This document shows positions 2,921-62,806 of a stretch of DNA of 64,000 nt, piece after piece. How positions within the stretch are numbered: the stretch's first letter is position 1; each line of letters starts with the position of its first letter. The position numbers and the translations under genes are program-made. A model generated the notes under the pieces. The model was not told the origin of the DNA. It saw nothing but the letters and a program-made list of their open reading frames with translations, and made no database searches. Origin of the DNA: Thelephora terrestris (Eukaryota > Basidiomycota > Agaricomycetes > Thelephorales > Thelephoraceae); contig WIUZ02000011.1 of assembly GCA_015956445.1 (NCBI GenBank), positions 310,001-374,000 of the forward strand, written 5' to 3'.

Positions 2921-5900
2921 TGTCAGGAACATGGTATTTTTTTAAACTTTTTATAACACGCTCTTTCTTCGAACTCTTCTTACCATTTCTTATGTTTTGA
3001 ATGCTTCACATTCCTTATCCTTCACATCCATCATTCAAAACACACAAACGCGCATACATTCACGGCAATACGGAACAACTGGCTATACAATGCTTATACA
3101 ACGTCCTCAAAAGTCGACTCTATCTATGGCAGGCCTCATGGTCATCAAACGTCCATCCCGGAGATCATAGTGCTGGCCCCTTCTCGCAAGGACCTCCCCG
3201 AACATGGCGTCACCATCTTCGGCACTCAGCTGAACGACTAGTTCAAGCTGATAGGAAGAGACTCCTTCGAGCGGACCGATCAGCCTCCCAGATGTCACCG
3301 AACTCTGGAACACCTGGTCCCACATCTCCATCACCGGGTGACTGCTCGGCAGCACTATCGACGTAGTCGACGAGCGACCCTCCGTCTCCCTCGTCAGACC
3401 CCTGGGTGGGATCCTGTCTTGCGAGTCGAAGCTGGTGGCGAAGCTGGATCTCCGACTCAACCTGTCGGTAGGGACGGTTGACCCGATAGCGGAACTCTCG
3501 TCCCCTATCTCGACCAGACTGGTCACCATCCGACTCAACTGGACGTGGGTATGGGTTAGCCGATGGAGCCATGCGATGAGCAACACAGCGTCGAGAGTGT
3601 TTGCAACGCTGCCCTGTTGTCACCGGACGTACCTCGATGGCCCTCGGAACATCTTCGGCCCGGTCAACCTCCATGACCTCATCCTCGATCTTGACCAGCT
3701 GACTGATCGGCTGCAGCGGGCAACGCGGACAGTTCTCCTTGTCGGACGTGGCCAACGTAGAAGCCGGAGCCGGAGTCGGGACGGGAACCGCGTTCTCTAC
3801 CGGAGGTGTCGCGTAGGACGACGGGTTAGGCGACGGGAGTACCACCTCATCGGCGTACTCCAGCTCGAATGGAACATCGGCAGTCCCCTGACCAACCAAC
3901 TTCGAACCCTCCTTGCAGTTGCAGGTCTTATCCTGCAAGGACGCGACCTGCGCAGTCAACACAGCCACCACGTCCTCGAGCTGTTCAGTCTAGAAGAATC
4001 TCTCAGTCATTGCATAAACCTGCAAAGACTGAAGGAACCTTTTCATCCCTCCTGGCCAGCGCCCCCTTGATGTTATTATCCCTGACCTTCAGCCCCACGA
4101 CCAACTCTTGATGGTTGGCAACCATCGCCTCCAACGCTTCGTTCGTCCCCTGCTGGAAGGCTGCCAGAGTCTCCTTCATCTGAAGACTCTCCGCCGACAG
4201 ACGAAGGACGTCTGCCTTCGCCTCCTTCACCTCGCGCTCCAAACGTTCAACCTAGGCAGTTTGATTAGTCGAGAGTCATATTCGAATATTCAAACAGAGA
4301 ACCTACCCGGCTCTCTCCCTCCCGAACGAGCGACCACAATAACGAGGTGGCGGCAGTGGCATGGCGGACGGCCCGAGGAACGGTTGCCCCGTGCTCCAAC
4401 AAGTCCTGATCGTAGATCCCTTTGCAGGGTGTACCAGAGTTCCTTCTTGATCGAGTGCTCCAACTCCCCGAACCTACCCCTCATCTGGAAGATCACCTTC
4501 TCGGCGATCATGGACCGGACCCAGAGCTCATCGTCCCAGGTCAACCCCATCAAATGTGGGATCGTCTCCCTGAGACGTTCGGCGTCCACTTCCTTGACGA
4601 TCTCCAAGATCTAGAAGCCGTTAGCTTGACATCAACGCCGAAGAACGTACGACCTCTACCTAGAGGAAGGCGTTAGTGCAAACACTCGAAGCTCTAGACC
4701 TCCCCCATACCTGATCATCCGTGGTATAGGGAGTCCCCGCCTCACTGGCGTAGGTCTTACGGGCGGCGGCACGACGGTCGATACGGGAGATAGTAGAGAT
4801 GCCGTTGGCGACTTTGTAGGTATAGTTGTTGGGGAAGGACATGTTTTGGTAAGATGATGGGGAAGTTGCTGGTGTTGCTGATCAAGGATGGCTCCAAGAA
4901 GACGTCCTTCTTATAGCCTAGATCGGTGATCCTTCACGTGACCTACCTCGACGAACCTCATTGGTCCGGGTCACATCAACTTCCGCCACTGTACCATCAT
5001 CGTTGGCTTACTACATCAAGCTGACACCTCGGCCCGCAGGACGGCCTTGGAAGAACTTCGTTCCGGAACGCCTAGAACGCGCGCGCACTAAAATAGGTCT
5101 CAAGACCCTGATGACCCGTTTATGACATCACGAACCCCTTTTACGACCCCTCATGACTTTACGATAACGATCAACCCTGGACCCTGATCACACACGTGGA
5201 CAGTCACATCACAGTCTCCTAACCGGAGGAAGGAATCGCTGTTATTCGGAAGAAGTGCCCTAGACTCCTTTTGTTTAGCTCAGCGAATGTGGAGTAGCCG
5301 TTAGCGTGAAACGCCGGCGAATCTGTAATCCCTCATGTCCCATGAGTCTAGGCCTGCACTCCTCATGTTCGGACGTACGTTGAGGTTGCCACTAGTCCGT
5401 GATGCTGTTACCGCCTACAGACAACAAGGGATGTTGTATGGTCTCTATCTTTGGCCTCTCCAAAGGAAGCATCCAAGAAGATTCTCACCTAGCCCTTGGG
5501 TGTGATCCCCAGGTATGAACTTTCATGACCCCATGCCCCTCTTTCTTTTAGGACTAGTGTTATCTTTACCCCTATGTTTCATGCGGACATTCCTTATCTT
5601 TTATGCAATCCTTCACACGCTAGTAAGGCCCTTTGTCCTTTATCTTCCCACGCGTCATATTTGTTCGCTTCCCTTACTTAGCGTTCTCACACTCCTTATC
5701 TCCCTTTGTTCTGGACTTGATAAGGGTATATTAGGGTATTGACGTCATGGCCACTCCTTTAGTATAAGTAGCAACTGTGGCTGTATCGTAGTACCTTAGT
5801 TTTGTTACCTCAGGAAATCCTCTGCCCTTCTCAGCCCAGTTGCAGTTAAGGACAAGTCAGAGTTTCTTGTTTGATCCAAGACACCCCCATCTGCTCTCCC

Positions 5901-6217
5901 TCCCGCTCTGCGCATCAACTGCGCCTCGTAACTATAGAACCCCAGCGTTCACCTTATAGAACACCTCGAGCGTCCAGTCGATCAACTGGTGGAGTCATCA
6001 ATCCTGTCGTAGGGATAAACCCTTGTTTGTTAAACCGAACGAAGTACGGTTTAGGTTGGGTTTCCCTTTAGGATTTCGACCTGACTTGTAGTGACCTCGG
6101 ACAACCTACCGGAAGAATAGAGACGTGATCGTTCTCTCACAAGCTAGTTGGACTAGTGAGTACTCTGCGGAGTCGGCTCAGTGCACTGGTAGTTGTTGGG
6201 GTAGAGTGGCCCTGACA
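2921..6217 (+). mobile_element. Giant LTR-like element, copy A (3297 bp)
   Basis: The element starts TGTCAGGAAC and ends GGCCCTGACA (TG..CA with a 7-bp inverted end), flanked by CTAAT on both sides. I find no internal terminal direct repeat and no protease, integrase or reverse transcriptase. A TATA box (TATAAGTA, 5763) faces the right end and lies about 454 bp from it, giving a U3-TATA-R-U5 layout. The rest carries a minus-strand gene, antisense to the TATA box. This fits a solo long terminal repeat of about 3.3 kb better than a complete element. Copy B at 38319 is exactly the same length and very similar, so the copy is probably fairly young. A non-autonomous LTR-type element is the main alternative. 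Confidence 0.75.
3243..4842 (-). CDS. antisense coiled-coil protein gene inside copy A
   Basis: The minus-strand open segments are 4842-4660 (starts MSFPNNYTYKVANGIS), 4607-4290 (holds LTWDDELWVRSMIAEKV and KKELWYTLQRDL), 4242-4003 (MEREVKEAKADVLRLSAE, strongly helical and heptad-like) and 3971-3243 (Pro/Ser-rich, then YRQVESEIQLRHQLRLARQ). Gaps are short with intron-like borders. The same order of motifs occurs in copies B, C, D and F, so the protein is conserved across diverged copies. It matches no pol domain I know; a gag-like structural role or a host-derived regulator are both open. Treated here as part of an LTR-kin fossil. Confidence 0.55.
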
Positions 6218-6222
6218 CTAAT
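6218..6222. repeat. 5-bp target duplication CTAAT (right of copy A)
   Basis: Exact partner of 2916-2920. Confidence 0.85.
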
Positions 6223-6235
6223 AGGGTTTCTATAG

Positions 6236-7295: not shown

Positions 7296-7375
7296 TGGTT
7301 CAAATTGATCGATCACATTGTGGCACGACATAGCATTTCAACCCGTGTTGTTTGTGCACGTTTATCAAAACCTTT

Positions 7376-15437: not shown

Positions 15438-18400
15438 TTATTGGTTGTCCCCAGGGTCGTCTGCCTCCATTACATCTAATCCTATCCTTTCTACTACATA
15501 AAACTGGTCGCTGTGTCCGTCAATTGCAAACGGAAAGGGGACCATCGCCACGACCGATTGAATCGACTTGGCACTTACGACCACAAGCAGCCTCTCCCTA
15601 TGACGTCTACAGACTGCAAGCGTCGTGTGAGTGTATTGCAGGAGGTATTCGTTCGGCGGTGCATAGAACGACACGAGCGCGAAGGCTCGTAACTCTTCTC
15701 CAAACATCTTGAAGAAGTAGAATTCAATTTCGGCAAAGTACATGGCATTTTGATAGAAGATCTTCAGTACCTTTTGTCAATAACGTACAGACTCAAATTG
15801 AATCAAGATGCTTACCTTAACATTGCAATCCATCCGGGACATGTCCGAGCACCAATCCACTTCCTTCCATCGGGATCTTGCTATCTGCTCGGTGGGAAGT
15901 TTGAGACGCCCCCAACGATAGACGGTCCGTCGATCAATATCTTCTGCACCCGGGTAGCCGGAGAAGAAGGTATCCAGGGCGGTTTGTTCGTCGTCAGGAA
16001 GGCGATAGAGGGTCGTGTCCTTTGGTCCCAATAGCAAGTAGTTGTCGCCTAGATCCTTAGATCCTCGAGGGTCCTTGTCTTGTATTTGTAGGTCAGGCCA
16101 CATAGCAGTAAGGGCGTTAGTGTACACAACACGCTTCGCTTGTGCTGCAAGGTTCCGGAATATATTTGATGGCTGTTTGAGGAGGTTGCCAAGGTACCCA
16201 ATTGTGCGCTCCATAGTCCACTGCGAAGAAAGCCAGAGGGGTCCGAGCCGATGGGTCTCTCACGCGAGATGGGTGAGGGAATGCACGCATTGCCGGATGA
16301 AGTGGAGCTGTTGAACCGGAGGTCTATGCCCGGCAACGGGTCAACCGGCTCCACCGCTTCAAGCGAGAGCCGATGCCGGAGAGCGTTGATCAAGCGACCC
16401 GAAGGGACGGGATCACATCAGTGATCCGATCGATCGGTATGACGCGCGCGTGCCTTAAGCCGCCGCACAGACCCTGCATCAGTCACACTATATAGATGTG
16501 ACACCAATAGAGTAGATAGATATATATACCCCTCATATGTAGATAGATCAATCAATCACTTCTCTCTCTCTCTCCCCCACTAGCAACTATAAGACTCTCC
16601 CCTTCAGGTAAGACTTAGAGTACCCATGTAGTAGTATAGAATTATACTCTACCTGCTCAACAGGAGCCGGTCTGGGTTGCGCTCACAGTAGATAACCTCG
16701 AAGTCAACAACCCATTGGAGGAGGAGCTGATGCACGGCAAGCAACTGCTCCCGAGAGATTGCACGCTGGTGAATGATCCGAACCGCGTGGACGAGCCTAC
16801 AAAAGTGAGAGTAATAGGGGTCTGGAAGAATCCTATAGAAGACGCCAGGTCCCAGGCCGTAAAGATATGTTAGAAACTCCCAGGCCTTGTATCCACTTGA
16901 GACCTTCTCTTGCGGATTTCGAGGAGGACGGCCAAAGGAAGTCGGTAGATACTTAGCAGCATCTGAGACCACCGCACCATGAGCCTTCCAGACATTTCCA
17001 GTAAGTACCGCCCACGGCCAAACGGACGTACGATCCTGATCGCGAGCAGCAGGTCGAGCGCACCATAGGTCGAGGAATAGAGCCGCCATGTTTATCAGCG
17101 GCTGGTGCATCAGATCGCCTGGGAAGCAGGTAGGAAGCGGTAGGGTGCGAGGTATACCAGAGAATATACTCGGCTTCCCTATACCTGTTGCCAAACGGCG
17201 TCTCCTGTATTCAGCCTCACTATCTGAATTGATAACCGAGATTAGATCTCGCCTGTAGATCGCGGGAACTGGGGCCGGGAGAGAGGTAACGTCGATGTCC
17301 GCATGGGAGGAGGTGCGATGATCTTCGAAGCCGATAGGTCGTAGAAGAGCAGGATAGTAGTGAGATCCGTGTTCCTTGTTACGCCCGGCAAACCCACAGA
17401 GAAGTCTGCAGCCACAACGGCCGTGATGTCCAACGGATCCGGTAAGCTGCCCCATCGCGATTGAATCTGCCAAGTCCAAGAAGAGGAATAGACGAGATCT
17501 CGCCTGTTTTCGGTCATAGGCGTCCCAAATCGGCAGAGATTCGCGCTGAAGCGCAGATACGTGGGCCAGGCCAGGGAACAAAAATGAATCCAAGTCCCCA
17601 GGTGGTTCTGGGCCAGGGATAACGCCACCAGGAAGGATGTTGCGCATCTTGTAACGTTTGTCCAGCCCCAGATCGAGGATTATCCAGATGTAGATCCAAC
17701 AGTCGGACTGTTTACTCTCGTTGAGTTGCGCGCCGTCCATCGAGAGCATGACAACTGTGTCGTATTCGCGGATCATTCTATTCCGGACAAGTTCTAGATA
17801 GTCCTCGCCACAGATAATGTCATCGTAGAGTTTTGTACGTTCGCCGGTCGTCGCCTCTTCGTTCAAAATTTCTAAAGTCCTCTCCCATCGATAGTGCATG
17901 GCCTTGGCCATTTCTGAGTGTTTTCGGCAGGCCTGGAGTTGCGGACCAACTGGAAAGGTCGTGAATAATTTCCTAGGGACCTTTCTCTCGCTGTTAGACT
18001 CGTCGAGATCTTTCTGTACATAGCGTGACTCCCCGCAATCGGGACAACGTTCCAGGTCCCGATACGGCCCAGTAAACCCAACGCACATCTTGATACACAT
18101 GTGGTGGTCCCAAGTAACAACCCCAGAGAGCCGTCGAGCCTGTTGTTCGACCTGGTAGTACGACAGTAGTTCGATGTCAGGATAGCAGGCCCGAAGGTTT
18201 CGGCGTGCATCCTCATAGGCCTTCTGAGAGTGATTCATGAAAGATACAAAATTCATGAGGGAAAGCCGGAGGTTACGGTCGTCCGGAGGGGTACGGTCGT
18301 GGGCTCTGGGATCCAGAAACTCCTCGAGCTCGTCAGGACCAAACTGAGATGCGAGAGTGGATTCTCCCAGCATACGGATGAACTCCAGAGCGATGCGAAT

Positions 18401-42425: not shown

Positions 42426-42550
42426 TAGCTTAACCACTTTGGGTTAGTCAGGACTACAAACAGAAAAATAATGCAAGAGGTGAATGGATTCCTGATCTGG
42501 CAGTGCCTTGAGGTTAGGTTAGGATGTTGCTGTTTTCCAGAATCAATCAG

Positions 42551-42745
42551 ATATTTCCTTTTTAGGTAATCCATCAACTATTTCTCTTTTAGGCAGTCAA
42601 GCAAAATTTTCTTTTTAGGTAATCCATCAAATATTTCCTTTTAGGTAATTCATCAAATATTTCTTTTTTAGGTAATCCATCATATAGTTCCTTATTAGGT
42701 AACCTATCATATAGTTCCTTATTAGGTAATCCATTAAATATTCTT
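42551..42745. repeat. about 26-bp degenerate tandem repeat
   Basis: About eight units built on TTTCCTTTTTAGGTAATCCA followed by TCAAATA. Individual units of this type also occur in the outer arms of P1 and P5. Confidence 0.7.
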
Positions 42746-42759
42746 TTCGAGGTAATCCA

Positions 42760-43470: not shown

Positions 43471-43489
43471 GAAAAAGTAGCTGAATGGG

Positions 43490-47304: not shown

Positions 47305-47329
47305 AAATATTAAAGTCTACACGGTGACA

Positions 47330-48281
47330 TGCCTCCATTCTCTGGAGTACTCATCGGCGACATTCCCTACGTCCCTTTCCCTCGGGATGCTTCGCGACAT
47401 TTCGCGACATTTCTATACTCTCTATACCTCCCTACCCCCCCCCCCTATGCATCCCTATACTTCCCTACATACCCGTATGTCCCCCTTTACCTCACTACTC
47501 CCTTCCCTACACTAACCTACTCGTCCCGATGCTTCGCGACCTTCCCGATGTTTTAGTATTCTCCCTATCTCTCACTACCCCCCCCCCCGACCTCCCTATA
47601 TCCCTCCCAACACTACACCATTCGCGACCCCTCCCTATATCTTCTCCCGACTTCCCTATACCTTTGCGATTTCTCCCTACACCATTCCCCTCGATCTCTC
47701 GATCCCTATGCTCGATCATTCCCTTTTGGTTCATTTCTCAACCACATCTCTTTCCTTGGTCGTTCCCTTCGATCCCTCGCCCTCCCTATGTCATAGACTC
47801 GTCATTAGGTCTTTTGACATCATTTGGTTCATTCCCTCTTGCTTCCTACGTTCTCAGAGCCTCCTAGATTAGTATATAAGCCTCTGTATTCGATAGACTC
47901 ACGAGAGACCAATCCAGGGGACTGATTCCCATGTTTTCCTCTCCCTATCGTTCTCCTCTCGTCGTTGTCGTCTCCCTATAGTCTCCTGCGTCTTCCCTAT
48001 CGTTCTCGTCGTCATACCTGCGTCCCTGCGTTCTCGTCGTCGTCTCTAGCGTCCTGTCGTCATCCCGAAGATCCCGACCTCCTGAAGTTCTTCTCGTCGT
48101 CCCGAAGTTTTCCCTCGTCGTTCCTTTGTCTGTTTCATTGATTCCCTTCTGTTATCTTTAGTTATCTTTAGTTCCCTCTTGATATCTACTTCTCCCTACA
48201 CGTCCCGACGTTCCCGACGTTCCCGACGTTTCCCTACATTTCCCTACAGTTCCCTACGTGTCCCTACGGAGCTAGGAGGCA
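47330..48281 (+). mobile_element. LTR-like insertion inside the Copia element
   Basis: A 952-bp pyrimidine-rich block with TGCCTCC / GGAGGCA ends, a TATATAAG box near 47871 and many TCCCTA and TCGTCG words after it. No coding capacity. It separates the integrase part from the reverse transcriptase part. A solo LTR of another family is likely, but I could not confirm a target duplication. Confidence 0.5.
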
Positions 48282-48375
48282 TCGTATGACCAAGGACCAC
48301 CTTCATCGACGTTGACAGGGCACCCCATCTTCTCCCCATCGGACCTTAGCCCACATAGCCCCTGTTCAGCGGCAT

Positions 48376-50214
48376 ATGAAGGATTGGAAGAAGGTTGTTG
48401 GGGATTTTTCCGTAGCACCTAGGCGCGGGCGAAGTTCAGGAGCAATTCCCGGACCTAGCACGCAGCCACTTCCTGAGAGAGAATCCTCCGCTGCGGAAGA
48501 GACTGAAGCGGCGTCAGAGTCCGAAGATGAGATTGAAAGGTCCGTTGAACCATCCGGATTCACCACCCCTGAGGAAGACGCTGACGCCCTTCTGGCTAGG
48601 CTATGCCGGGAAGGGGGAGTAGAACTCCAAAACCTCTTGATTTCGAAGGCCGTCTCACCAACTGCCAACGAAAAAACCCCAAAAGAATGGAAATACCAAG
48701 ACATCGCCACACTACCACAGGCTGAGCTCGAGGAATGGAGGACAGCCTGCAATGAAGAGTTGGAAGTTCTTCGCAGGCGCAAAGTATATGACCTGGTAGA
48801 GCGCCCTCGAGGCTGCAAGGTTATCAAAAACCGCTGGGTATTCGACCAAAAACCAGATGGTCGCAAGAAAGCCCGCTTAGTAGCGAAAGGCTTCTCACAG
48901 GTTGAGGGAATGGACTACGATGCCGTGTTCTCCCCCATTGTCCGATTTGAGACAGTGCGCCTAATATTTGCAATGGCCGCCCTCAAAGGATGGGCCCTCA
49001 AAGGGCTTGATGTTCGAAATGCATACCTATACGGCGAACTCGACGAGGAAATCTACATGGAACAACCAGAGGGATTTGTAGCTCCAGGAAAAGAGACTCA
49101 TGTTCTCCGCTTAAAGCGTGCCCTCTACGGACTGAAACAAGCCGGGCTCGCATGGTGGCGAGCCCTGAAATGGTCCATGGAAAGGCTCGGATTCAAATCC
49201 TTGAGCTCAGATGCCGGGATTTTCATCTACCAGGATAAAGATGGAAGATTTGTGATCACGTTAATCTACGTAGACGACGCCATCTTTACCAGACCCCACA
49301 CAGCGCTTACAGAGCAGCTCAAGGGGGAGTTCATGAAGATATGGGAAACCAGGGATTTAGGGGACCTAACCGATTTCCTCCGCATGATGATCACCCGACA
49401 TGGCAGCAAGATCTCCATAGATCAATGCGCCTACCTCCAAACGGTCCTTGAGCGATGTGGGATGCAGAATGCTAAAGTTGCAGCAACCCCTCTCCCGGCC
49501 GGGTATGTGCCGACTCCGTCGACAGAGGTAGCATGCCCGGAAAGACGAAGCAGGTTCCAAACCATAATTGGTTCCTTACTATACCTCATGCTGGGTACCC
49601 GACCAGACATCGCCTTCGCGGTTACCAAACTTGCGCAATATGCTGCAAACCCGTCAAAAGAGCACATCGAAAAGGCGCTGTATATCTGCCGCTACTTAAT
49701 CGGGACTTCGAAATACCGACTAACCTACGACGGAGATTCACGGGAAGGTATCTCAGCCTGTACCGACTCAGATTGGGCTTCAGACCCCACTCAGAGACAA
49801 TCCCAAAGTGGATACTTTGTCCGAATGGCAAAGGGACTCATCTCATGGACCTCAAGAGTGCAGAAAACAATTGCGCTATCGTCCACTGAGGCTGAGTACA
49901 TGGCGCTCTCTGATTGTAGCCGCCAAGTAGTCTGGATGCATACCCTTCTGGGGGAGCTCGGCTATAACCTCAAAGCCATCCCAATCTGCGGAGATAACCA
50001 AGGCTCGATCTTCATCACCTCAAACCCGGTTACTGAAAAGAGGTCGAAACATATCGATATCCACTATCATTATATTCGCGAAGTCATCAATGATGGACGC
50101 GTGGTAGTGTATTTCATTCCCAGAGATGATAATCCTGCGGATCTCCTGACGAAGAACCTAGGGGTCGTCAAACTCAGAAAATTCAGAGATGCCCTAGGCC
50201 TTGAATTCTCCTGA
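48376..50214 (+). CDS. Copia reverse transcriptase and RNase H
   Basis: A 612-codon open frame. RT motifs in order: KVIKNRWVFDQKPDG, ARLVAKGFSQVEGMDYDAVF, LKGLDVRNAYLYGELDEEIY, LKRALYGLKQAGLAWW and the YVDDAIF active-site box. RNase H motifs follow: ACTDSDWASDPTQRQSQSGY, SSTEAEYMALS, and GDNQGSIFI with KHIDIHYHYIRE. Part of the Copia fossil. Confidence 0.9.
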   Translation: MKDWKKVVGDFSVAPRRGRSSGAIPGPSTQPLPERESSAAEETEAASESEDEIERSVEPSGFTTPEEDADALLARLCREGGVELQNLLISKAVSPTANEKTPKEWKYQDIATLPQAELEEWRTACNEELEVLRRRKVYDLVERPRGCKVIKNRWVFDQKPDGRKKARLVAKGFSQVEGMDYDAVFSPIVRFETVRLIFAMAALKGWALKGLDVRNAYLYGELDEEIYMEQPEGFVAPGKETHVLRLKRALYGLKQAGLAWWRALKWSMERLGFKSLSSDAGIFIYQDKDGRFVITLIYVDDAIFTRPHTALTEQLKGEFMKIWETRDLGDLTDFLRMMITRHGSKISIDQCAYLQTVLERCGMQNAKVAATPLPAGYVPTPSTEVACPERRSRFQTIIGSLLYLMLGTRPDIAFAVTKLAQYAANPSKEHIEKALYICRYLIGTSKYRLTYDGDSREGISACTDSDWASDPTQRQSQSGYFVRMAKGLISWTSRVQKTIALSSTEAEYMALSDCSRQVVWMHTLLGELGYNLKAIPICGDNQGSIFITSNPVTEKRSKHIDIHYHYIREVINDGRVVVYFIPRDDNPADLLTKNLGVVKLRKFRDALGLEFS

Positions 50215-50290: not shown

Positions 50291-50577
50291 TGTTGAACCG
50301 GAGGTCTGTGCCCGGCAACGGGTCAACCGGCTCCACTGCTTCGTGTGAAAGCTGATGCTGGAGAGCACTGATCAAGCGACCCGAAGGGACGGTATCACAT
50401 CAGTGATCCAATTGATCGGTATAACGCGCGCGTGCCTTAAGCCGCCGCACGGACCCTGCATCAGTCACGCTATACAGTTGTGACGCTAATAGAGTAGATA
50501 GATATATATACCCCTCATGTGTAGATAGATCAATCAATCGCTTCTCTCTCTCTCTCCCCCACTAGCAACTATAAAGC
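50291..50577 (+). mobile_element. 3' LTR of the Copia element (truncated)
   Basis: Starts TGTTGAACCGGAGG and matches the solo LTRs at 16309, 27055 and 62078. It stops after about 287 of 355 bp at the start of copy E. Confidence 0.9.
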
Positions 50578-50668
50578 TGTCAGGGCCACTCTACCTGTCA
50601 GGGCCACTCTTCGCCCTTCAGGTACCAGTGCTGTTGGTGAGTCGCAACTCCAACCAACAAGAAACAAT

Positions 50669-52034
50669 CACTGGGGGCAAGGGTTGGTTTACTGAGTCAG
50701 TAAACTGTGAGTAAATCGCAAGCAAATGGAAAAAGAACCCAGCCAAATACTTGCCTGGCAAGCACAAAGCAAATTCATGATTTACTGAGCCAATTTACCT
50801 GTGATTTACTGGGTTCAGTATGCGCTCAGTATGTTTGCAGTTTACTGGGTCATGTGACCACAGTTTCCCCATTAGGTAAACCTCGGAAAAATTCACAATT
50901 TACTGGACAAATTTACCCACAATTTACTGAGCCACTTACCCAATCAGTATGTTTTTAATTTGCTGAGTGATTTAATCACAATTTACTGGACTCAGTAAAC
51001 TGGAAAAAAACCAAACTGGTTTACTGATGATGTACCTGATTGGTCAATTTGAAAAATACCCGAAAATTTACCTGAACGTGTCATTGTCAGTAAACTGCAA
51101 GTTTTCTTTCAGTAAATTGCAAATACACGTCAGGTAAACTGGGAAAACATGTGACAATTTGATTGTGGTTTACTGGACTCAGTAAATTAGAAAAAAACCT
51201 AACCAGTTTACTGATGATGTTCTTGATTGGTTAATTTGAAAAATACTCGAAATTTTACCAGGACGTGTCTTTATCAGTAAACTGCAAGTTTTCTTTCAGT
51301 AAATCGCAAATACACGTAAAGTAAACCAGAAAACACGTGTAAACTGTAAGTAAATTCAAAGTTTACGTGTTTTCTGGTTTACTTTACGTGTACTTGCGAT
51401 TTACTGAAAGAAAACTTGCAGTTTACTGATAAAGACACGTCCTGGTAAAATTTCGAGTATTTTTCAAATTAACCAATCAAGAACATCATCAGTAAACTGG
51501 TTAGGTTTTTTTCTAATTTACTGAGTCCAGTAAACCACAATCAAATTGTCACATGTTTTCCCAGTTTACCTGACGTGTATTTGCAATTTACTGAAAGAAA
51601 ACTTGCAGTTTACTGACAATGACACGTTCAGGTAAATTTTCGGGTATTTTTCAAATTGACCAATCAGGTACATCGTCAGTAAACCAGTTTGGTTTTTTTC
51701 CAGTTTACTGAGTCCAGTAAATCGTGATTAAATCACTCAGCAAATTAAAAACATACTGATTGGGTAAGTGGCTCAGTAAATTGTGGGTAAATTTGTCCAG
51801 TAAATTGTGAATTTTTCCGAGGTTTACCTAATGGGGAAACTGTGGTCACATGACCCAGTAAACTGCAAACATACTGAGCGCATACTGAACCCAGTAAATC
51901 ACAGGTAAATTGGCTCAGTAAATCGTGAATTTGCTTTGTGCTTGCCAGGCAAGTATTTGGCTGGGTTCTTTTTCCATTTGCTTGCGATTTACTCACAGTT
52001 TACTAACTCAGTAAACCAACCCTTGCCCCCAGTG
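50669..52034. mobile_element. P3: 1366-bp CACTG palindrome element
   Basis: Starts CACTGGGGGCAAGGGTTGGT and ends with the inverse, flanked by AAT (50666-50668 and 52035-52037). The fold centre is near 51350. Arms carry many TTTACTG/CAGTAAA words, and mirrored frames (50707-50958, 51996-51745) translate identically. No transposase. Copy C gives the uninterrupted site. Confidence 0.92.
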
Positions 52035-52161
52035 AATGGGGCAAAGGGGGAACGACTTCCCTATATCCACCCAAAGTCTACGTGGTCCAAACGCAATGGA
52101 CGAGCGTTCTCCGGTAGGTTGTCCGAATTCACAGCAGGAGTGCCGAGCCTCTATCAGATAA

Positions 52162-53526
52162 CACTGGGGGCAGGGGTTGGTTTACTGAGTCAGTAAACTG
52201 TGAGTAAATTGCAAGTAAATGGAAAAAGAACCTAGTGAAATACTTGCCTGGCAAGCGCAAAGCAAATTCACAATTTACCGAGCCAATTTACCTGCAATTT
52301 ACTGGGTTCAGTATGTGCTCAGTATGTTTACAGTTTACTGGGTCATGTGACCACAGTTTCCCCATTAGGTAAACCTCGGAAAAATTCACAATTTACTGGA
52401 CAAATTTACCCACAATTTACTGAGCCACTTGCCCAATCAGTATGTTTCCAATTTGCTGAGCGGTTTGATCACAATTTACTGGACTCAGTAAACTGGAAAA
52501 AAACCAAACTGGTTTACTGACAACATCCCTGATTGGTCAATTTGAAAAATATCCAAAAATTTACCTGGACGTGTCATTGTCAGTAAACTGCAAGTTTTCT
52601 TTCAGTAAATTGCAAATACACGTCAGGTAAACTGGGAAAACACGTGACAATTTGATTGTGGTTTACTGGACTCAGTAAATCAGAAAAAAACCTAACCAGT
52701 TTACTGACGATGTACCTGATTGGCTAATTTGAAAAAAACTCGAAAATTTACCAGGACGTGTCTTTATCAGTAAACTGCAAGTTTTCTTTCAGTAAATCGC
52801 AAATACACGTAAAGTAAACCAGAAAACACGTAAACTTTGAATTTACTTACAGTTTACACGTGTTTTCTGGTTTACTTTACGTGTATTTGCGATTTACTGA
52901 AAGAAAACTTGCAGTTTACTGATAAAGACACGTCCTGGTAAAATTTCGAGTTTTTTTCAAATTAGCCAATCAGGTACATCGTCAGTAAACTGGTTAGGTT
53001 TTTTCTGATTTACTGAGTCCAGTAAACCACAATCAAATTGTCACGTGTTTTCCCAGTTTACCTGACGTGTATTTCCAATTTACTGAAAGAAAACTTGCAG
53101 TTTACTGACAATGACACGTCCAGGTAAATTTTTGGATATTTTTCAAATTGACCAATCAGGTACGTCGTCAGTAAACCAGTTTGGTTTTTTTCCAGTTTAC
53201 TGAGTCCAGTAAATCGTGATTAAATCACTCAGCAAATTAAAAACATACTGATTGGGTAAGTGGCCCAGTAAATTGCTGGTAAATTTGTTCAGTAAATTGT
53301 GAATTTTTCCGAGGTTTACCTAATGGGTAAACCATAGTCACATGACCCAGTAAACTGCAAACATACTGAGCACATACTGAACCCAGTAAATTGCAGGTAA
53401 ATTGGCTCAGTAAATTGTGAATTTGCTTTGTGCTTGCCAGGCAAGTATTTGGCTGGGTTCTTTTTCCATTTGCTTGTGATTTACTCACAGTTTACTGACT
53501 CAGTAAACCAACCCTTGCCCCCAGTG
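52162..53526. mobile_element. P4: 1365-bp CACTG palindrome element
   Basis: Same family as P3 with moderate divergence; flanked by TAA (52159-52161 and 53527-53529). Copy C shows the empty site (GATAAATCC). The fold centre is near 52845. Confidence 0.92.
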
Positions 53527-54254
53527 TAAATCCCTTTCGTCTTCTGAGGGCAGATATAAGAGCCCGAGGATGGCGCCTCAAACTGATGCTTGATTAAGAG
53601 AGCGGCGAGGAACTCCTTTTCGTAAGCGCGTTCGCCGATTCTTAACGCAAGGCTGAGAGAGAGAGGAGAGCGAACGTGTTCAGAGAGTTACTTGATAAGC
53701 TCTTCAGTGGCCTACAGCAAATACACCGATGCTGCAAGGAGAAGAGGACTTCCCGAGATATCAAAGATAGGGAGTCCTCAGCTACTCTACTGGTACTTAT
53801 ATAGGAGAGTGGCCGGGACATAGATAACCCTGTCTAATAATAACTCGGAGCAAAGAAGGGCTGAGAGTAAGCTGGAACAGTAAGCGGCCCGGGTTACAGA
53901 ATAGAAATGATAAAGGAATGACTAATGGGTCAGGGTTCATGAGAGAATAAGAAAGGGGTCATGACGTCGTGTGGGAGAGGAATGACAAAGAACAATATCA
54001 CATGTGAGGACGAACCAATGAGAGGACGACGCGTCAGCTCGTCCGATCGGGACAACAAAAGGCCGAGTGGGGCCTGAATGTTGAGGGCGAAATGTAGGAA
54101 GAGTCTGGACCGGTGAGACGATAGTCCGATCCAATGGCAAATAGGACGCGAGCGCTGTCGATGGTCGGATAAAGCGTAGCGCGAACCGGCCGTTGGATCC
54201 ATCAAACTCCCTTCTTCCCAACCAACACTTCCACCAACCAACTACTCTTCTATC

Positions 54255-56007
54255 ATGCCCATGATCTCTGATTGTGTCTTCCGTGCTGAGAACAGCACCG
54301 CTACCATCGAGTCCGCCGATCCGCGTTCCGTGCAGAACAAGGGTTATTTCCTACCGAACGCCAATGTGGCGTACCCAAGTTATCGCGAGGTGTGACGTCA
54401 CGTGTCGCCGTTTTGCTGGCAACAACTGACATCGCATTGGTAGATCTTCGCAGCGGCCGACAAGGTTGATGCTCGACAACTGGAGGCGACGATCGCCAAG
54501 CCTCCCAGCTACCTGACCATGGACGACGAATTGTGGTATCACAACTTGATCGACCACAAGCTGCAAGAGTCGATGCGCGGGGTAACGTTCAACACCGAGT
54601 TGCGCATGCCGTATGAGACTCCTGTGGCTTCGTCATTGTGGGGGCTCCTGCGAATGGGGATCTATGATCTGGGGAATGGGGAAGGAAGGTGGCCTGGAGC
54701 GACTCGCTCCCAACACTACACAGCAGCCGTTGGTCACCGCCTTTGGTTCCTATTGAGGACGGAACAGAAAGCGGTGAGTCGATCTGTGCATCCCGCTTGT
54801 GGGATAACACTGATTGGCTTGTAGAACGAGCGGCTGAAGCGCGAGGTGAAGGAGGCGAAGGACGACGCCCGCAGGATGTACTCGGAGGCGTTGGACACGA
54901 AGAAAACACTCCTCCTGATGAATGACACGCTTCGTGTGACGTTCGAGAGTGAGATGCTGGCGATGCGGGAGGAACACAATCGATTGGTGGAGTCGTTGAA
55001 GGAACGGGACGACACCATCCAGCGAGACCTGATCGAGGTCGACCGACGGCTCAACCGTCACAGAAGGGCTCTGAATGAGCTCGACACCAAGGTTGGTGCA
55101 ACTTCTCCTGGTCTTCATCCAAGAGAGCTCACGCCACTTCTAGGTCGACACGTTGGACGATGCCTTGCCGTTGCTGGGCGCTCGTGTTGAGTCGATGAGT
55201 GAGCGGTTGTGCCACTGTCGCACTCGTTCGGTGGCTGCGGTTCGCGATGAGTCCGGGGACGAGTCGATCCCAGACAGGATGGCTTCCCCCATAGGTCGGG
55301 ATGCCGGTTGACATATTTGACTTGTCCACTGACATCCCTCTTAGCTTCCGATGGGTCGTACCGCACACCTGCGCATACTGATGGCGGGGAGGAGGTCGTC
55401 CGTGAGACGTCCGAAGAGACGGCCGTCAATCCAGTCAGCAGTTCTCCTGAGTTGGAGTACGCAGGGGAGAACAAGGTGGCCGTTCCGGTTCCGCCTCCGT
55501 CGATCTCGCCGGTGCGTGGGCAGCGTTCTATCCGTGCTCGTCGATGGGTTCCTTATCGTGGGGCACTTCGTCCAGCGCACCACATGCGTCCCAGTAATCC
55601 AGACGCTGTCCGCCAGGGTGGAGACATCGAGTCCACCGTCCTATTCCGACGCAACAATGTTGCAGTGTCGCGTGGATCGCGGTGAGTTGATTCCGGTGGA
55701 ATCCGTCGACGTGAACGGATTGACGAACCTTACGCTCTTGTCGGTCCAGCGTGCAGCGGAGGCCGTTTGCCTGGTGGCTCAACTGACCGAGAGAGTGGAG
55801 GGTTGGTCAGTCCAGAGGACTCTGGATCAGACTACGGTCGATTCAGCGAGGAACCGCCTTCACGCCGAGGTCCAGCTGGCCGTCGCTCATCGTCTGGAGG
55901 AAGCTCGGGTCGTCGAGATGGTCAACGAGGAAGTCGTCGAGAGTGCCTCGGAGGGGACGGAGGAGGAGGGTGCCAGTGCTGAAGAGTACTGGCAAACTAG
56001 GTCTTGA
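54255..56007 (+). CDS. antisense coiled-coil protein gene inside copy D
   Basis: Plus-strand segments with the same motif order as copy C: MPMISDCVFRAENSTATIES from 54255; KPPSYLTMDDELWYHNLIDH (from about 54449); ERLKREVKEAKDDARRMYSE (from about 54826), a heptad-rich helix; and Pro-rich or acidic segments to 56007. Similarity to copy C is high at both DNA and protein level. Confidence 0.55.
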
Positions 56008-57562
56008 CGACTAGAGTCGGTGCACGTTAGTTCCTGTCCATAGGGTCGGTGCGGATTCAACTCCGTTGGCCATTTGTCTTGTGTCTTTGTCGCGGGTTCG
56101 CCCGCTGTAATATCATCTGTGTCTTGCCTTTCGGATGACGTGTGAGTCGTGGTAAGGAAAGTGGGCGAAAGTTGGGTGTAAAAATGGTTCAAAAAGGGAA
56201 TAAAATTCAGCACGCTGACACTACCCCAACAACTACCAGTGCACTGAGCCGACTCCGCAGAGTACTCACTAGTCCAACTAGCTTGTGAGAGAACAATCAC
56301 GTCTCTATTCTTCCGGTAGGTTGTCCGAGGTCACTACAAGTCAGGTCGAAATCCTAAAGAGAAACCCAACCTAAACCGTACTTCGTTTGGTTTAACACGC
56401 AAGGGTTTATCTCTACAGCAGGATTGATGACTCCACCAGGTGATCGACTGGACGCTCGAGGTGTTCTAATATGAACGCTGGGGTTCTATAGTTACGAGGC
56501 GCAGTTGACGCGCAGAGCAGGAGGGAGAGCAGATGGGGATGTCTTGGATCAAACAAGAAACTCTGACTTGTCCTTAACTGCAACTGGGCTGAGAAGGGCA
56601 GAGGATTTCCTGAGGTAACAAAACTAAGGTACTACGATACAGCCACAGTTGCTACTTATACTGAAGGAGTGGCCATGACGTCAATACCCTAATATACCCT
56701 TATCAAGCCAGAACAAAGGGAAATAAGGAGTGTGAGAACGCTAAGTAAGGGAAGCGAACAAAGCTGACACGTGGGAGAATAAAGACAAAGGGCCTTACTA
56801 GCGTGTGAAGGATTGCATAAAAGATAAGAAATGTCCGCATGAAACATAGGGGTAAAGATAACACTAGTCCTAAAAGAAAGAGGGGCATGGGATCGTGAAA
56901 GTTCGTACCTGGGGATCTCACCCAAGGGCCAGGTGTCAATCTCCCTTTACATGGCCTCTGCCAGCTGGATTCGGGAGTAGAGACATTCAACATCCCTTGT
57001 TGTCTGTAGGCGGTAACAGCATCACGGACTAGTGGCAACCTCAACGTACGTCCGAACATGAGGAGGTCGGGCCTAGACTCATGGGACATGAGGGATTACA
57101 GATTCGCCGGTGTTTCACGCTAACGGCTACTCCACGTTCACTGGGCTAGACAAAAGGAGTCTAAGGCACTTCTTCTGAATAACGGCGATTCCTTCCTCCG
57201 GTTAGGCAGCTGTGGTAGTTACATTACTGAGTAAAGTGTGATAACTGGTCAGATTTCACCCTCAAAGTTATCATGATAACTTTGAGTACTGCTCAACCCA
57301 TACTCACCCACTGTTTTGGGTTGATGGGAGAGGTCCCAATTAGGCAGGTGCCGAGGGTGTGGATTGCCTGGGAGTCTGGGTGGGTTTCTTTTTTGGGAAT
57401 ATCCCAGAAAGGAAATATTGATGGCTTATGTAAGCAATAATGGGAAACAGAATAGATGGAATGTCTATAAAAGGAAATACTATAAAAGGAAATACTATAA
57501 GAGGAAATTTGATGGATTACATAATGGGATCATGTGACTTCCTAAAAAGAAAAATTTACCTG

Positions 57563-57712
57563 GTATGTTATTTTTACCAAATATGTTATTTTTACCAAAT
57601 ATGTTATTTTTACCAAATATGTTATTTTTACCAAATATGTTATTTTTACCAAATATGTTATTTTTACCAAATATGCTATTTTTACCAAATATTCTATTTT
57701 TTACCAGATTTG
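57563..57712. repeat. 18-bp tandem repeat, left arm of P5
   Basis: About eight units of ATGTTATTTTTACCAAAT. They read as MLFLPN repeats but this is not a supported protein. Confidence 0.85.
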
Positions 57713-58199
57713 TTATTTTTCTAACTACAGCAATTTCTAAGTATGAGAACTTCTAAATAGCATAATTTTCAAGAATAGTGACCTTTCAATAAGTTGATTT
57801 TCCAACATTACAATTGGAAGGTCTTCATTTCAATGAGATTTATGTAAACTTTTCTTTGCCTTTTCTACCATATGATAGAATATGGTTCTGTTTGTAGTCA
57901 TGACCTAACCTAACCTAAACCGACCCTAACTCAACTTGATTTTGTTTTATCTTATCTCACCTAACCCCTAATCTAATCTAATCTACAAGTGTTTCATCTA
58001 ATCTACCCAAAATAGTCCACCTGACCTAACCTAACCTACAGTAAATCCAACCCACTGTAAATGTAACCTACCATAAACATAATCTATGGTAAACATAATC
58101 TACGGTAAACATAGTCTACGGCAAACGTAGTCTACGGTAAACTTAATCTACCGTAAACGTACTCTACCGTAAATGTACTCTACCATAAACATAATCTAC

Positions 58200-58330
58200 C
58201 TTAAACTTAACCTAAACCTAACCTAACCTAAACCTAACCTAACCTAAACCTAACCTAACCTAAACCTAACCTAACCTAAACCTAACCTAACCTAAACCTA
58301 ACCTAACCTAAACCTAACCTAACCTAACCT
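58200..58330. repeat. TTAGG-type array, left arm of P5
   Basis: CCTAACCTAAA units with an 11-bp higher-order period; mirror at 59440-59580. Confidence 0.8.
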
Positions 58331-59439
58331 ACCGTCAACGTAAACCTAACCTGACCTAACCTACCCTAAACCTAACCTACTCTACACCTAACCTACCCTA
58401 AACCTAACCTGTCCCAAACCTAAACCTAACCTACCCTAAACCCCACCCTACAGTAGTCCACCTAACCTTACCTGACCCTGTTCTAAAGTAGCCTTACCCA
58501 ACCCAATATGGTCTACTCGACCTAACCTAACTAAATCTATCTGGCCCTGACCTGACCTAACCTGATCTAACCCAGCCTAGCATAACCTAACCTAATCTGC
58601 AAAAATGTGAACCTAGCTCAACCTATCCTCACCCAGCCCATTAGTATGTAACTTGGTTTATGGGAACACAGGATGAACCACACACTTCCCAACTACAAGC
58701 TGACAATTGCTCAAGTGCATCTACTTTGCTGGACCTACAAGCCAGTGGACCTATAAGCCTATATGCCCACAAACCCATGGGGACCTATACTCAGTACATG
58801 TGACAAGCCATATTCTGTTCCAGACTGCAACCTGGCTGCAACCCAAGCCCTTTCACCCTGCAGGCTAATGGACTCATCAACTCAAACCCTTACAGATCTG
58901 TAGGCCCATAATACACCAACTGGCTAATAGGTCCAGTTAGGTGGACAAGTTTGGGTTGCAGTCAGGTTGCAGTCTGGAACAGAATATGGCTTGTCACATG
59001 TACTGAGTATAGGTCCCCATGGGTTTGTGGGCATATAGGCTTATAGGTCCACTGGCTTGTAGGTCCAGCAAAGTAGATGCACTTGAGCAATTGTCAGCTT
59101 GTAGTTGGGAAGTGTGTGGTTCATCCTGTGTTCCCATAAACCAAGTTACATACTAATGGGCTGGGTGAGGATAGGTTGAGCTAGGTTCACATTTTTGCAG
59201 ATTAGGTTAGGTTATGCTAGGCTGGGTTAGATCAGGTTAGGTCAGGTCAGGGCCAGATAGATTTAGTTAGGTTAGGTCGAGTAGACCATATTGGGTTGGG
59301 TAAGGCTACTTTAGAACAGGGTCAGGTAAGGTTAGGTGGACTACTGTAGGGTGGGGTTTAGGGTAGGTTAGGTTTAGGTTTGGGACAGGTTAGGTTTAGG
59401 GTAGGTTAGGTGTAGAGTAGGTTAGGTTTACGTTGACGG

Positions 59440-59580
59440 TAGGTTAGGTTAGGTTAGGTTTAGGTTAGGTTAGGTTTAGGTTAGGTTAGGTTTAGGTTAG
59501 GTTAGGTTTAGGTTAGGTTAGGTTTAGGTTAGGTTAGGTTTAGGTTAGGTTAGGTTTAGGTTAGGTTAGGTTTAGGTTAA
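59440..59580. repeat. TTAGG-type array, right arm of P5
   Basis: Mirror of 58200-58330, read as TTTAGGTTAGG units. Confidence 0.8.
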
Positions 59581-60082
59581 GTTTAAGGTAGATTATGTTT
59601 ATGGTAGAGTACATTTACGGTAGAGTACGTTTACGGTAGATTAAGTTTACCGTAGACTACGTTTGCCGTAGACTATGTTTACCGTAGATTATGTTTACCA
59701 TAGATTATGTTTATGGTAGGTTACATTTACAGTGGGTTGGATTTACTGTAGGTTAGGTTAGGTCAGGTGGACTATTTTGGGTAGATTAGATGAAACACTT
59801 GTAGATTAGATTAGATTAGGGGTTAGGTGAGATAAGATAAAACAAAATCAAGTTGAGTTAGGGTCGGTTTAGGTTAGGTTAGGTCATGACTACAAACAGA
59901 ACCATATTCTATCATATGGTAGAAAAGGCAAAGAAAAGTTTACATAAATCTCATTGAAATGAAGACCTTCCAATTGTAATGTTGGAAAATCAACTTATTG
60001 AAAGGTCACTATCCTTGAAAATTATGCTATTTAGAAGTTCTCATACTTAGAAATTGCTGTAGTTAGAAAAATAACAAATCTG

Positions 60083-60460
60083 GTAAAAAATAGAATATTT
60101 GGTAAAAATAGCATATTTGGTGAAAATAACATATTTGGTAAAAATAACATATTTGGTAAAAATAACATATTTGGTAAAATAACATATTTGGTAAAAATAA
60201 CATATTTGGTAAAAATAACATATTTGGTAAAAATAACATATTTGGTAAAAATAACATATTTGGTAAAAATAACATATTTGGTAAAAATAACATATTTGGT
60301 AAAAATAACATATTTGGTAAAAATAACATATTTGGTAAAAATAACATATTTGGTAAAAATAACATATTTGGTAAAAATAACATATTTGGTAAAAATAACA
60401 TATTTGGTAAAAATAACATATTTGGTAAAAATAACATATTTGGTAAAATAACATACCAGG
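60083..60460. repeat. 18-bp tandem repeat, right arm of P5
   Basis: About 21 units of AACATATTTGGTAAAAAT, the mirror of the left-arm array but more than twice as long. Confidence 0.88.
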
Positions 60461-60810
60461 TAAATTTTCCTTTTAGGAAGTCACATGATCCCATTATGTA
60501 ATCCATCAAATTTCCTCTTATAGTATTTCCTTTTATAGTATTTCCTTTTATAGACATTCCATCTATTCTGTTTCCCATCATTGCTTACATAAGCCATCAA
60601 TATTTCCTTTCTGGGATATTCCCAAAAAAGAAACCCACCCAGACTCCCAGGCAATCCACACCCTCGGCACCTGCATGATTGGGACCTCTCCCATCAACCC
60701 AAAACAGTGGGTGAGTATGGGTTGAGCAGTACTCAAAGTTATCATGATAACTTTGAGGGTGAAATCTGACCAGTTATCACACTTTACTCAGTAAAAGTTA
60801 ACTACCACTA

Positions 60811-61532
60811 GTGTTCTTCACGCATCTGGAGCATCTCGCTCTTGAAGGTCGTCCTCAGTGTGTTGGTAATCAAACGAAACGTCCGGTTATTCTCCAATTG
60901 CTCCTGAACCAAGTGACGAATATCGGCCTTGGTTTCCTGCACTTCACGGCAAAGATGTTCATTCTACTAGTCAATCAGTGTTATCCCTCAAACGGGATAT
61001 GCACAGATCGACTCACCACTTTCTGTTCCGTCCTCAAAAGGAACCAGAGACGGTGGGCTACGGAAGCCGTGAAATGTTGAGACCTAGTACTCCCTGGCCA
61101 TTTCCCCTCGTTTTCGGCAAGGTCGTAGATCCCCAGCTGGAGGAGACGCCACAAGGACGCTGCCACAGGAGTCTTGTCGGACTGACGCATCTCAATGTTG
61201 AAGTTCACTCCAAACGTCGCTCCCTGCAGTTTGTCGTCGATCAAACCATGGAACCACAGTTCGTCATCCAAGGTGAGGTATCGAGGCGGCTCTGGGATGG
61301 TCCCTTCCAGGTCACTAGCCTCCGTTCTATCGGCTATCGCTGCAATCTAAAAGCGCTGTCAGTAATCGTCAACATCGACAACGTGTGACAACGCGACCTG
61401 ATGATAGCTGGGGTACACCGCAGTGTCAGTTGGGAGGAAGTATCGCTTATATTGAGGACTGCGAGCATCCATCGGAGAGATCGTGGACATAGTATGACCA
61501 CTCCGGAAGACACATTCGTTGATCATGGGCAT
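60811..61532 (-). CDS. antisense coiled-coil protein gene remnant in copy F
   Basis: Minus-strand segments: from ATG 61532 (MPMINECVFRSGHTMSTISP, then KRYFLPTDTAVYPSYHQV), from about 61320 to 60981 (MDDELWFHGLIDDKLQGATF, VAASLWRLLQLGIYDLAENE, SVAHRLWFLLRTEQKV), and a short coiled-coil piece (KSEMLQMREEH-like) before P5. Clearly homologous to copies C and D but distinctly diverged, so the protein is conserved over a longer time. Confidence 0.5.
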
Positions 61533-62077
61533 AGTGGAAAGTGTTGTTGGTTGGTGGTGATGAGGATGGGTTGATGGGTCTAACAGCTGGTTCGCGCTCA
61601 CCCTTTATCCAATCCTCAACTGGCTCGCGCCCTATTCGCCCTTGGACCGCATCACCTTTACCCCAGTCTAGATCCCTCCTAATGATATCGACTCCGCAGC
61701 CCCTCTATTGCCCCACTCGGCCCTTCCTTGTCCCGACCGAACGAGCTGACGCGTCGTCTCCTAATTGGTCTGTTCCTCGCATGTGATATTGTTCTTGGTC
61801 ATTCCTTTCCCACACGACGTCATGACCCCTATTCTTTTCCATTAACCACTTAGTCATTCATTGTCATCTGTTTCTCACACTCCAGACCGCTTACTGTTCT
61901 TGCTTATTCACGGCCCTTCTCTACTCCGGGTTATTATTAGATAGGATCATCTCTGTCCCGGCCCCTCTTCTATATATACTTAGGTAGAGTAGCTGAGGTT
62001 CCCTATCTTTGATATCTCGGGAAGTCCTCTTCTCCTTGTAGCACCGGTGTATTTGCCGCAGGCCACTGAAGAGCTTG

Positions 62078-62431
62078 TGTTGAGCAGGTAGAGTATAATA
62101 CTATACTACTACATGGATACTCTAATCCTTACCTGAAGGGGAGAGGCTTATAGTTGCTAGTGGGGGAGAGAGAGAGAGAAGCGATTGATTGATCTATCTA
62201 CACATGAGGGGTATATATATCTATCTACTCTATTGATGTCACATCTATACAGTGTGACTGATGCAGGGTCCGTGCGGCGGCTTAAGGCACGCGCGCGCCA
62301 TACCGATCGATCGGATCACGGATGTGATACCGTCCCTTCGGGTCGCTTGATCAGCGCTCTCCGGCATCGGCTCTCGCTTGAAGCGGTGGAGCCGGTTGAC
62401 CCGTTGCCGGGCATAGACCTCCGGTTCAACA
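62078..62431 (-). mobile_element. solo LTR of the Copia element, inside copy F
   Basis: Complete reverse-oriented LTR (TGTTGAGCAGG ... CGGTTCAACA) flanked by GCTTG at 62073-62077 and 62432-62436. Nearly the same sequence as 27055-27409. Confidence 0.92.
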
Positions 62432-62806
62432 GCTTGTCGAGTAACTCCTTGAATCGTTCGCTCTCCTCTCTCACTCAGTCTTATCCTTTAACCGGTGTTT
62501 GAAGTTAACTCGGACATGACATCGGGTTACGCACTGCTCTTTAGGACAAGTCAACAGTTTGAGTCGCCATCCTCGGGCTCTTGTTATCGCCCTCAGAAGA
62601 TGATAGGGGTTAACCTGATAGAGGCTCGGTATCACTGTTGTGAATTCGGACAACCTACCGGAGAACGCTCGTCCATTGCGTTTGGACCACGTATTATCTG
62701 GGTGGATATTGGGAAGTCGTTCCCCCATTGCCCCATTTAGTCTTGTTGGCTGGAGTGTTACTCGCCAACAGCACTGGTGTCTGACGGGCGAAGAGTGGCC
62801 CTGACA

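Follow-up and report, generated by a model that had tools for sequence, protein, structure and literature searches.

Antisense genes of retroelements and the repeat studied here

Additional open reading frames (ORFs) in antisense orientation to gag-pol are known from several long terminal repeat (LTR) retrotransposons, i.e., gene23 of maize Grande, RIRE2 of rice, Retand of Silene, PvRetro13 and brtn of the fungal element Boty, and these genes are placed between pol and the 3' LTR (PMC7264820). Here, a stretch of 64,000 nucleotides of Thelephora terrestris (contig WIUZ02000011.1, positions 310,001 to 374,000; the window) was analyzed, which is part of a 40.6-Mb genome assembled in 60 contigs and which contains six related repeat copies, A to F. 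Judged from the sequence, these copies are very probably LTRs, mostly solo, of self-priming Ty3/gypsy elements whose U3 region, about 2.9 kb in the A type, holds a complete protein-coding gene antisense to gag-pol. A preceding analysis of the letters of the window (the sequence-only reading) had proposed a long U3 with its own conserved antisense gene, which was borne out by a gene lying wholly in U3 and by selection acting at the codon level. It had also stated that no such case was known for this type of fungal element, which needs qualification in one part: in Botrytis, the element Boty carries an antisense gene, although this one is located between pol and the 3' LTR (PMC7264820).

The plant elements and Boty resemble the Thelephora elements in carrying a conserved gene antisense to gag-pol in most copies of the family, which in Grande has its own promoter (PMC7264820). 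The location differs: the known antisense genes (aORF-3R) lie between pol and the 3' LTR, whereas the gene described here lies inside U3, is doubled in each element and is whole in solo LTRs. Given this location, the plant and Boty genes would be present once per element and would be lost in solo LTRs. For human T-cell leukemia viruses (HTLV), PMC10186651 reports that HBZ of HTLV-1 and the APH proteins of HTLV-2/3/4 are made from antisense spliced mRNA starting at an LTR promoter, as proposed here, and damp LTR-driven expression. In this comparison, exon 3 of the Thelephora gene appears coiled-coil-like by eye, and no Pfam bZIP match was obtained. The HBZ/APH coding region lies largely outside the LTR, whereas here the gene is inside U3 and its function is inferred only; a sequence relationship to HBZ/APH is not expected. 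The HIV-1 HAP gene was claimed to lie within the U3-R regions of the LTR; transcription of HAP begins in TAR DNA, with an overlap of 25 nt with the sense RNA (PMC1654176), whereas the gene here has several exons, is located wholly in U3 and is under codon-level selection. Rice Retrosat2, with LTRs of more than 3.2 kb, shares an LTR length above 3 kb, an extra ORF and many solo LTRs; however, its ORF0 lies upstream of the gag-pol ORF and its ratio of solo to complete copies is 2.6 to 1, compared to a rough 50 to 1 here (PMC3485330). Self-priming is mentioned in PMC2864245. With the Tf1/sushi group of such elements the Thelephora elements share a primer site complementary to the 5' end of their own RNA (12 nt from position +2, in two families) and a Tf2-1-like SH3 domain in the complete element on contig C1. 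However, their LTRs are about ten times longer than that of Tf1 and carry a gene. Within the open-licence literature searched, the listings of which are incomplete, no description was found of a retrotransposon LTR that harbors a conserved antisense gene. Antisense accessory genes as such are known, and their placement inside a retrotransposon LTR seems to be new within this literature.

Two families of LTRs in the window

The six copies fall into two related families, the A-type (A, B, E) with an LTR of 3.30 kb and the D-type (C, D, F) with an LTR of 2.93 kb, and the DNA similarity between both is confined to five short patches. The features are as follows:

2921-6217, plus strand: copy A, solo LTR, A-type, 3297 bp; duplication CTAAT; the gag-pol sense would be plus
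38319-41615, plus strand: copy B, A-type LTR; no target duplication
28111-34934, minus strand: copy C, D-type LTR in two parts (28111-28205, 32130-34934) with a foldback insertion between them; duplication TACCT
50596-56220, minus strand: copy D, D-type LTR in three parts (50596-50668, 52035-52161, 53522-56220) with two foldback insertions; duplication CTACC
50578-57212, minus strand: copy E, truncated A-type LTR (50578-50595 and about 56221-57212); only R-U5 and the promoter end, gene absent
60808-62806, plus strand: copy F, D-type LTR truncated at 60808; 357-bp insertion at 62078-62434

The TGTCAG start and the CTGACA end noted by the sequence-only reading are present in copies A, B, C and D, while E and F are truncated, and its exact 5-bp target duplications of A, C and D were recovered as listed. 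Copy B has no such duplication. Copy D sits nested in copy E, 18 bp from the end of E.

The insertions in copies C and D belong to near-perfect large inverted repeats (foldback elements; 28194-32139, 50668-52038, 52161-53527, 57555-60231 and 36102-37815) with arms of up to about 2 kb that are about 95-100% alike; three of them are inserted in these two LTR copies. In another genome stretch (L013) an LTR is enclosed by a 1.8-kb inverted pair. A further repeat of about 355 bp occurs at 16306-16662, 27055-27409, 62078-62434 and, with about 287 bp, at 50291-50577; its copies are 92-98% alike and one is located within LTR copy F.

Complete elements flanked by the LTRs

The sequence-only reading suggested searching the genome for two direct copies flanking gag-pol, and such elements exist. 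On contig C1, two right-end motifs are 9.3 kb apart with an integrase match between them. They mark a complete A-type element with two direct LTRs of 3301 bp each, 99.94% identical, around 6017 bp of gag-pol and with TAATC duplicated outside; copy A is 92.1% identical to these LTRs from end to end. The internal region, which was searched in pieces and in this element only, shows matches in the order zf-CCHC, aspartyl protease, RVT_1, RNase H, Integrase_H2C2, rve, SH3_Tf2-1 and Chromo, next to a Retrotrans_gag match of 20.6 bits that is under its cut-off of 24.1. The order of protease, reverse transcriptase, RNase H and integrase after gag is that required for a Ty3/gypsy chromovirus, and a chromodomain is present at the integrase C terminus (Chromo, 1.5e-17). 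A second A-type element on contig C4 has paired LTRs around an rve match with ATCAC on both sides. A D-type element on contig C23 likewise pairs its LTRs around an rve match; it is bordered on either side by GACAT, and a similar polypurine stretch precedes its 3' LTR. All three elements have direct TG...CA LTRs and a 5-bp target duplication. The A-type and D-type copies are LTRs of Ty3/gypsy-like elements, of which the A-type is a chromovirus.

Copy number and solo LTRs

The 15-mer AGAGTGGCCCTGACA at the right end, common to all six copies, has 578 exact occurrences in the genome versus 0 when read backwards, showing that the copies are not a chance pattern. Junctions between LTR and primer site, searched as CCCTGACA followed by 14 bases and CCAGCCGGTACC with at most 2 mismatches, number 11 genome-wide and 0 in the control; 8 have an A-type and 3 a D-type primer site. 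At all 11 an rve match follows 3.8-4.8 kb further on on the same strand, the three D-type ones being under the Pfam cut-off. Given 11 junctions and 578 exact right ends, most copies must be solo or partial LTRs, roughly about 50 per complete element, an estimate in which degenerate ends, nested fragments and more-changed junctions are left unresolved. In the region G000:C23:1032747-1046900, two A-type primer-site junctions and two integrase matches lie on one strand, each pair 9310 bp apart, which suggests a tandem element with a shared middle LTR.

For a closer analysis, 33 full-length A-type copies were used, including A and B, i.e., those spanning the query nearly end to end within the genome stretches L009-L038 and the window; L001-L008 were excluded as they represent the same places. 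These copies are the best-scoring matches to A and not a random sample, taken from the best 40 of 637 candidates for A that were scored. An exact 5-bp duplication was found in 24/33. These 24 copies, A among them, consist of a full LTR in a single copy with its own target duplication and without the internal region, i.e., they are solo LTRs, and together with the complete elements they uphold the earlier interpretation of the copies as such. Taken alone, the own duplications in 24 of 33 copies and the lack of shared internal sequence after the right ends would also fit independent 3-kb transposons with short inverted ends and an unknown transposase. This interpretation was favored as long as the 33 copies lacked a common internal sequence, and it was dropped upon finding the complete elements, which had initially been missed because only the best 40 candidates were scored. 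In the complete elements, two direct copies enclose gag-pol and share a single outer duplication, and the copy itself contains sequence complementary to the primer site, which leaves this alternative with practically no probability.

Members of the Plavaka transposons, which occur in the genome, were also considered as mobilizers. They were rejected as Plavaka duplications are 2 or 3 bp and not 5 bp according to PMC12730594, and as no pattern emerged when 9 Plavaka places on contigs C1-C3 were compared with the right ends.

Structure of the antisense gene

The A-type gene was modeled in antisense coordinates of an LTR of the complete element (L039:391-3691). The ATG is at 1380 and the exons 1380-1511, 1612-1917, 1973-2185 and 2237-2983 encode 465 amino acids, separated by introns of 100, 55 and 51 nt. 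The ATG, the TGA, the donor GT and the acceptor TAG of the three introns are all present in 33/33 A-type copies, and the frame is intact in 24/33, whereas 7 copies are interrupted by a stop and 2 by a frameshift. By eye, DDELW is recognizable in exon 2 and exon 3 resembles a coiled coil; further motifs seen in this way are a Cys pair (CNC/CHC), a region rich in Pro and Ser and a basic PAHRM motif. In the window the gene is distributed as follows:

4908-4915, minus strand: copy A, TATA-like box TATAAGAA of the antisense gene (copy B: 40308-40315)
4711-4842, minus strand: copy A, exon 1
4305-4610, minus strand: copy A, exon 2 (DDELW; frameshifted)
4039-4251, minus strand: copy A, exon 3 (REVKEAK coiled coil)
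3246-3989, minus strand: copy A, exon 4 (Cys motif, Pro-rich, basic RRRPAHRM-like motif)
40110-40241, minus strand: copy B, exon 1
39707-39997, minus strand: copy B, exon 2 (aligned part; frameshift near start)
39439-39651, minus strand: copy B, exon 3
38645-39388, minus strand: copy B, exon 4
32967-33125, plus strand: copy C, exon 1 region (3' boundary unplaced)
33155-33484, plus strand: copy C, exon 2
33536-33769, plus strand: copy C, exon 3 (aligned part)
33821-34540, plus strand: copy C, exons 4-5 (33821-33910, 34019-34540; aligned parts)
54255-54413, plus strand: copy D, exon 1 region (one stop; 3' boundary unplaced)
54444-54773, plus strand: copy D, exon 2
54825-55100, plus strand: copy D, exon 3
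55144-55979, plus strand: copy D, exons 4-5 (55144-55233, 55338-55979; aligned parts)
60811-61532, minus strand: copy F, exons 1-3 (61395-61532, 61020-61346, 60811-60963; exon 3 cut off)

The sequence-only reading had assigned the same antisense protein to all copies except E. This holds for A to D, which show the exons in order, and in part for F, which retains exons 1-2 and part of exon 3; E is cut off before the gene. Of the genes in the window, those of A, B and D are damaged, with a frameshift in exon 2 of A and B and a stop in the exon-1 region of D. The relationship of the two families is seen at the protein level, as A-type exons 2 and 3 match D-type copies at E-values of 8e-7 to 3e-9. 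A tblastx comparison of the two LTRs recovers, in this order, exons 2-3, the beginning of exon 4 and the PAHRM motif, with a joint E-value of 9e-14 that includes a few rows outside the gene frame.

A second open frame was observed in antisense orientation at about 2607-3116 of L039:391-3691 (copy A: about 3107-3619, minus strand), which overlaps the end of exon 4 and passes its stop. It could represent an alternative 3' exon.

Selection on the antisense gene

For the 33 A-type copies, the neutral expectation was derived from the mutation spectrum of the non-coding LTR, and columns with more than 30% gaps were dropped. CpG-type changes were dropped in the first variant test and retained with their own rates in the per-exon frame test; in both tests the stretch taken as exon 1 includes 48 nt of intron 1, and that taken as exon 2 lacks the last 102 nt. 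For variants shared by at least two copies, the ratio of nonsynonymous (N) to synonymous (S) changes relative to expectation is 0.26, 0.18, 0.08, 0.18 and 0.40 for exons 1, 2, 3, 4a and 4b, respectively. Summed up there are 147 N and 282 S, i.e., 0.215 of the neutral ratio (sums made from rounded expectations). Among the other five frames only the mirrored sense frame is depressed for these shared variants (0.16 to 0.64), and it is weaker than the gene frame in every exon. Single-copy gap runs are about ten-fold rarer in exons, with 2 in 1398 exon bp versus 28 in 1892 other bp, and the exon ones are in A and B. In the D-type, the LTR of the complete element and copy D differ at 12, 6 and 85 positions for codon positions 1, 2 and 3 in exon regions 1-4; the bias is weaker in exon 5 (13, 5 and 18). 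The antisense segments are under purifying selection, as the dN/dS-type check proposed with the sequence-only reading now documents, and copy F shows the least of it.

These data bear on two other explanations. The antisense RNA rather than a protein might matter: by pairing with the U3 end of the genomic RNA it would give double-stranded RNA and lead to silencing or self-limitation, with the frame as a by-product. The gene is indeed the complement of the U3 part of this RNA, and PMC7264820 discusses roles of this kind for antisense genes of plants. However, constraint on the shared variants follows a single frame, with a weaker signal of the mirrored sense frame in every exon, and there are hardly any exon indels, making this explanation very improbable. 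A better but still low probability is given to a gene that is of use to the host or was captured from it, with the solo LTRs kept as host genes: 24/33 copies are intact, single-copy exon indels are depleted about ten-fold and the introns are as in a host gene, but 7 of 33 copies carry stops and 2 frameshifts, and exon 1 and the end of exon 4 are without constraint in single-copy variants.

Predicted promoters and self-priming

Three non-coding blocks of the LTR are conserved, i.e., R-U5, a block around the start of gag-pol (antisense coordinates about 300-540) and a block before the antisense ATG (about 1020-1380), the latter two being separated by a highly variable stretch near 720-780. The TATA-like box TATAAGAA is located 73 nt before the antisense ATG in the reference LTR and is exact in 33/33 A-type copies. 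On the gag-pol side, the features are:

5763-5769, plus strand: copy A, gag-pol TATA box TATAAGT (copy B: 41163; copy E: 56651-56660, minus strand)
5797-5808, plus strand: copy A, predicted start of the RNA (R); 12 nt that can pair with the primer site of complete elements (copy B: 41197; copy E: 56615-56626, minus strand; D-type: 53758-53769, minus strand, and 62004, plus strand)

The box TATAAGT lies 453-457 bp from the right end and 34 nt before the predicted RNA start in 33/33 A-type copies, in agreement with the distance of 452-476 bp given by the sequence-only reading. In the A-type, 12 nt from position +2 after the 5' LTR are complementary to LTR positions 2881-2892, and it is this complementarity that places the predicted RNA start. 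In the D-type the letters at +2 are different, and again a run of 12 nt has its complement in copies D and F, with 11 nt of it matched in this way in C. The 12 nt are kept in 33/33 A-type copies, compared to a mean of 17.5 across LTR 12-mers. As two families keep the pairing with different letters, chance is unlikely, and reverse transcription looks self-primed in the manner of Tf1.

Proposed mechanism and function

Two back-to-back promoters in U3 would produce the genomic RNA in one direction and the antisense mRNA in the other. As the gene is antisense to gag-pol, its introns would not be spliced from the genomic RNA but would stay in it and pass through reverse transcription, reasoning that rests on the known replication cycle of retrotransposons. 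Copying of U3 would put the antisense gene in both LTRs of the element, and recombination between the LTRs would remove gag-pol and leave the gene with its promoter. Since the gene and the conserved upstream block are wholly within the LTR, a full solo LTR retains both, and it may supply the protein in trans. Solo LTRs are usually seen as remnants with at most promoter activity, whereas here they can keep a whole intron-bearing gene and its upstream region. A simple rule suggested by this is that introns can persist through reverse transcription only in an antisense gene; the LTR length of about 3 kb would be explained as well. Moreover, such genes may be lost in repeat masking or gene calling, or be misread as host genes.

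As to the function of the protein, the favored assignment, given with slightly less than even confidence among the functions considered, is a coiled-coil regulator, probably nuclear, of its own element acting on LTR transcription or copy number; it is favored by analogy with the antisense HBZ/APH proteins of HTLV. Rather less probable is a structural or replication partner of the element acting in the ribonucleoprotein, in nuclear import or in integration. The coiled coil, the paired Cys and basic motifs and the spread of the gene with the element would suit such a partner, but the gene has its own divergent predicted promoter region, which speaks against co-expression with gag, and gives no Pfam Gag or Env match. 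Provided that the protein is a regulator, the hundreds of solo LTRs might together form an element-encoded copy-number (or host-beneficial) control circuit in which each remnant is a source of a trans-acting regulator, an idea that we consider speculative and rather unlikely. Such a role of solo LTRs was not found described in the open-licence literature searched.

Several observations weigh against this picture of the gene and its protein. Exon 1 is unmatched between A-type and D-type in the protein-level comparison, D-type intron 1 was not placeable in the splice-site analysis and the D-type gene has no clear TATA upstream, only AATAAA at a similar place as judged by eye. Splicing and both start sites are predictions from sequence. 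The antisense protein matches no Pfam family at cut-off (no Gag, Env or bZIP match), its PDB profile search returned only annexin at E-values of 0.8-1.2, taken as chance, and a structure model of exon 2 alone (4-row alignment) was useless with a pLDDT of 42.6, leaving the function without structural support. Regarding selection, the summed single-copy variants (170 N, 109 S) give a ratio of 0.64 and are thus only partly relaxed. In exon 4b it is another antisense frame in which single-copy variants are depressed (0.55, p 0.007), the gene frame showing no such effect (1.17); as this other frame is open there, an overlapping frame or a different 3' exon is possible. Copy F, the most distant one, shows a weak bias in exon 1 (39 N, 20 S) and three differences read as stops. 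Furthermore, the tests take the variants as independent, although the copies share ancestry and perhaps gene conversion, so that p values are too small, which leaves the frame specificity unaffected. Finally, supply in trans by many solo copies should relax selection on the gene of each element, yet selection is strong, a puzzle for every function considered. Silencing of solo copies or selection at the level of the host would explain this puzzle, and the elements offer a system for studying selection on a protein for which many copies could be the source.

Other repeats of the window

The genome carries DUF6535, Plavaka and copia genes, in keeping with an agaricomycete fungus. At 16649-18625 an open frame shows similarity under cut-off to Transposase_21 (tnp2) and is a possible Plavaka or CACTA-like relic. 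A tandem repeat of about 45 bp at 42543-43480 leaves several frames open (PYAPWVMGRA units), and similar sequence follows another LTR copy (L037). A copia-type element extends over two long split frames (rve, RVT_2) at 44866-50214.

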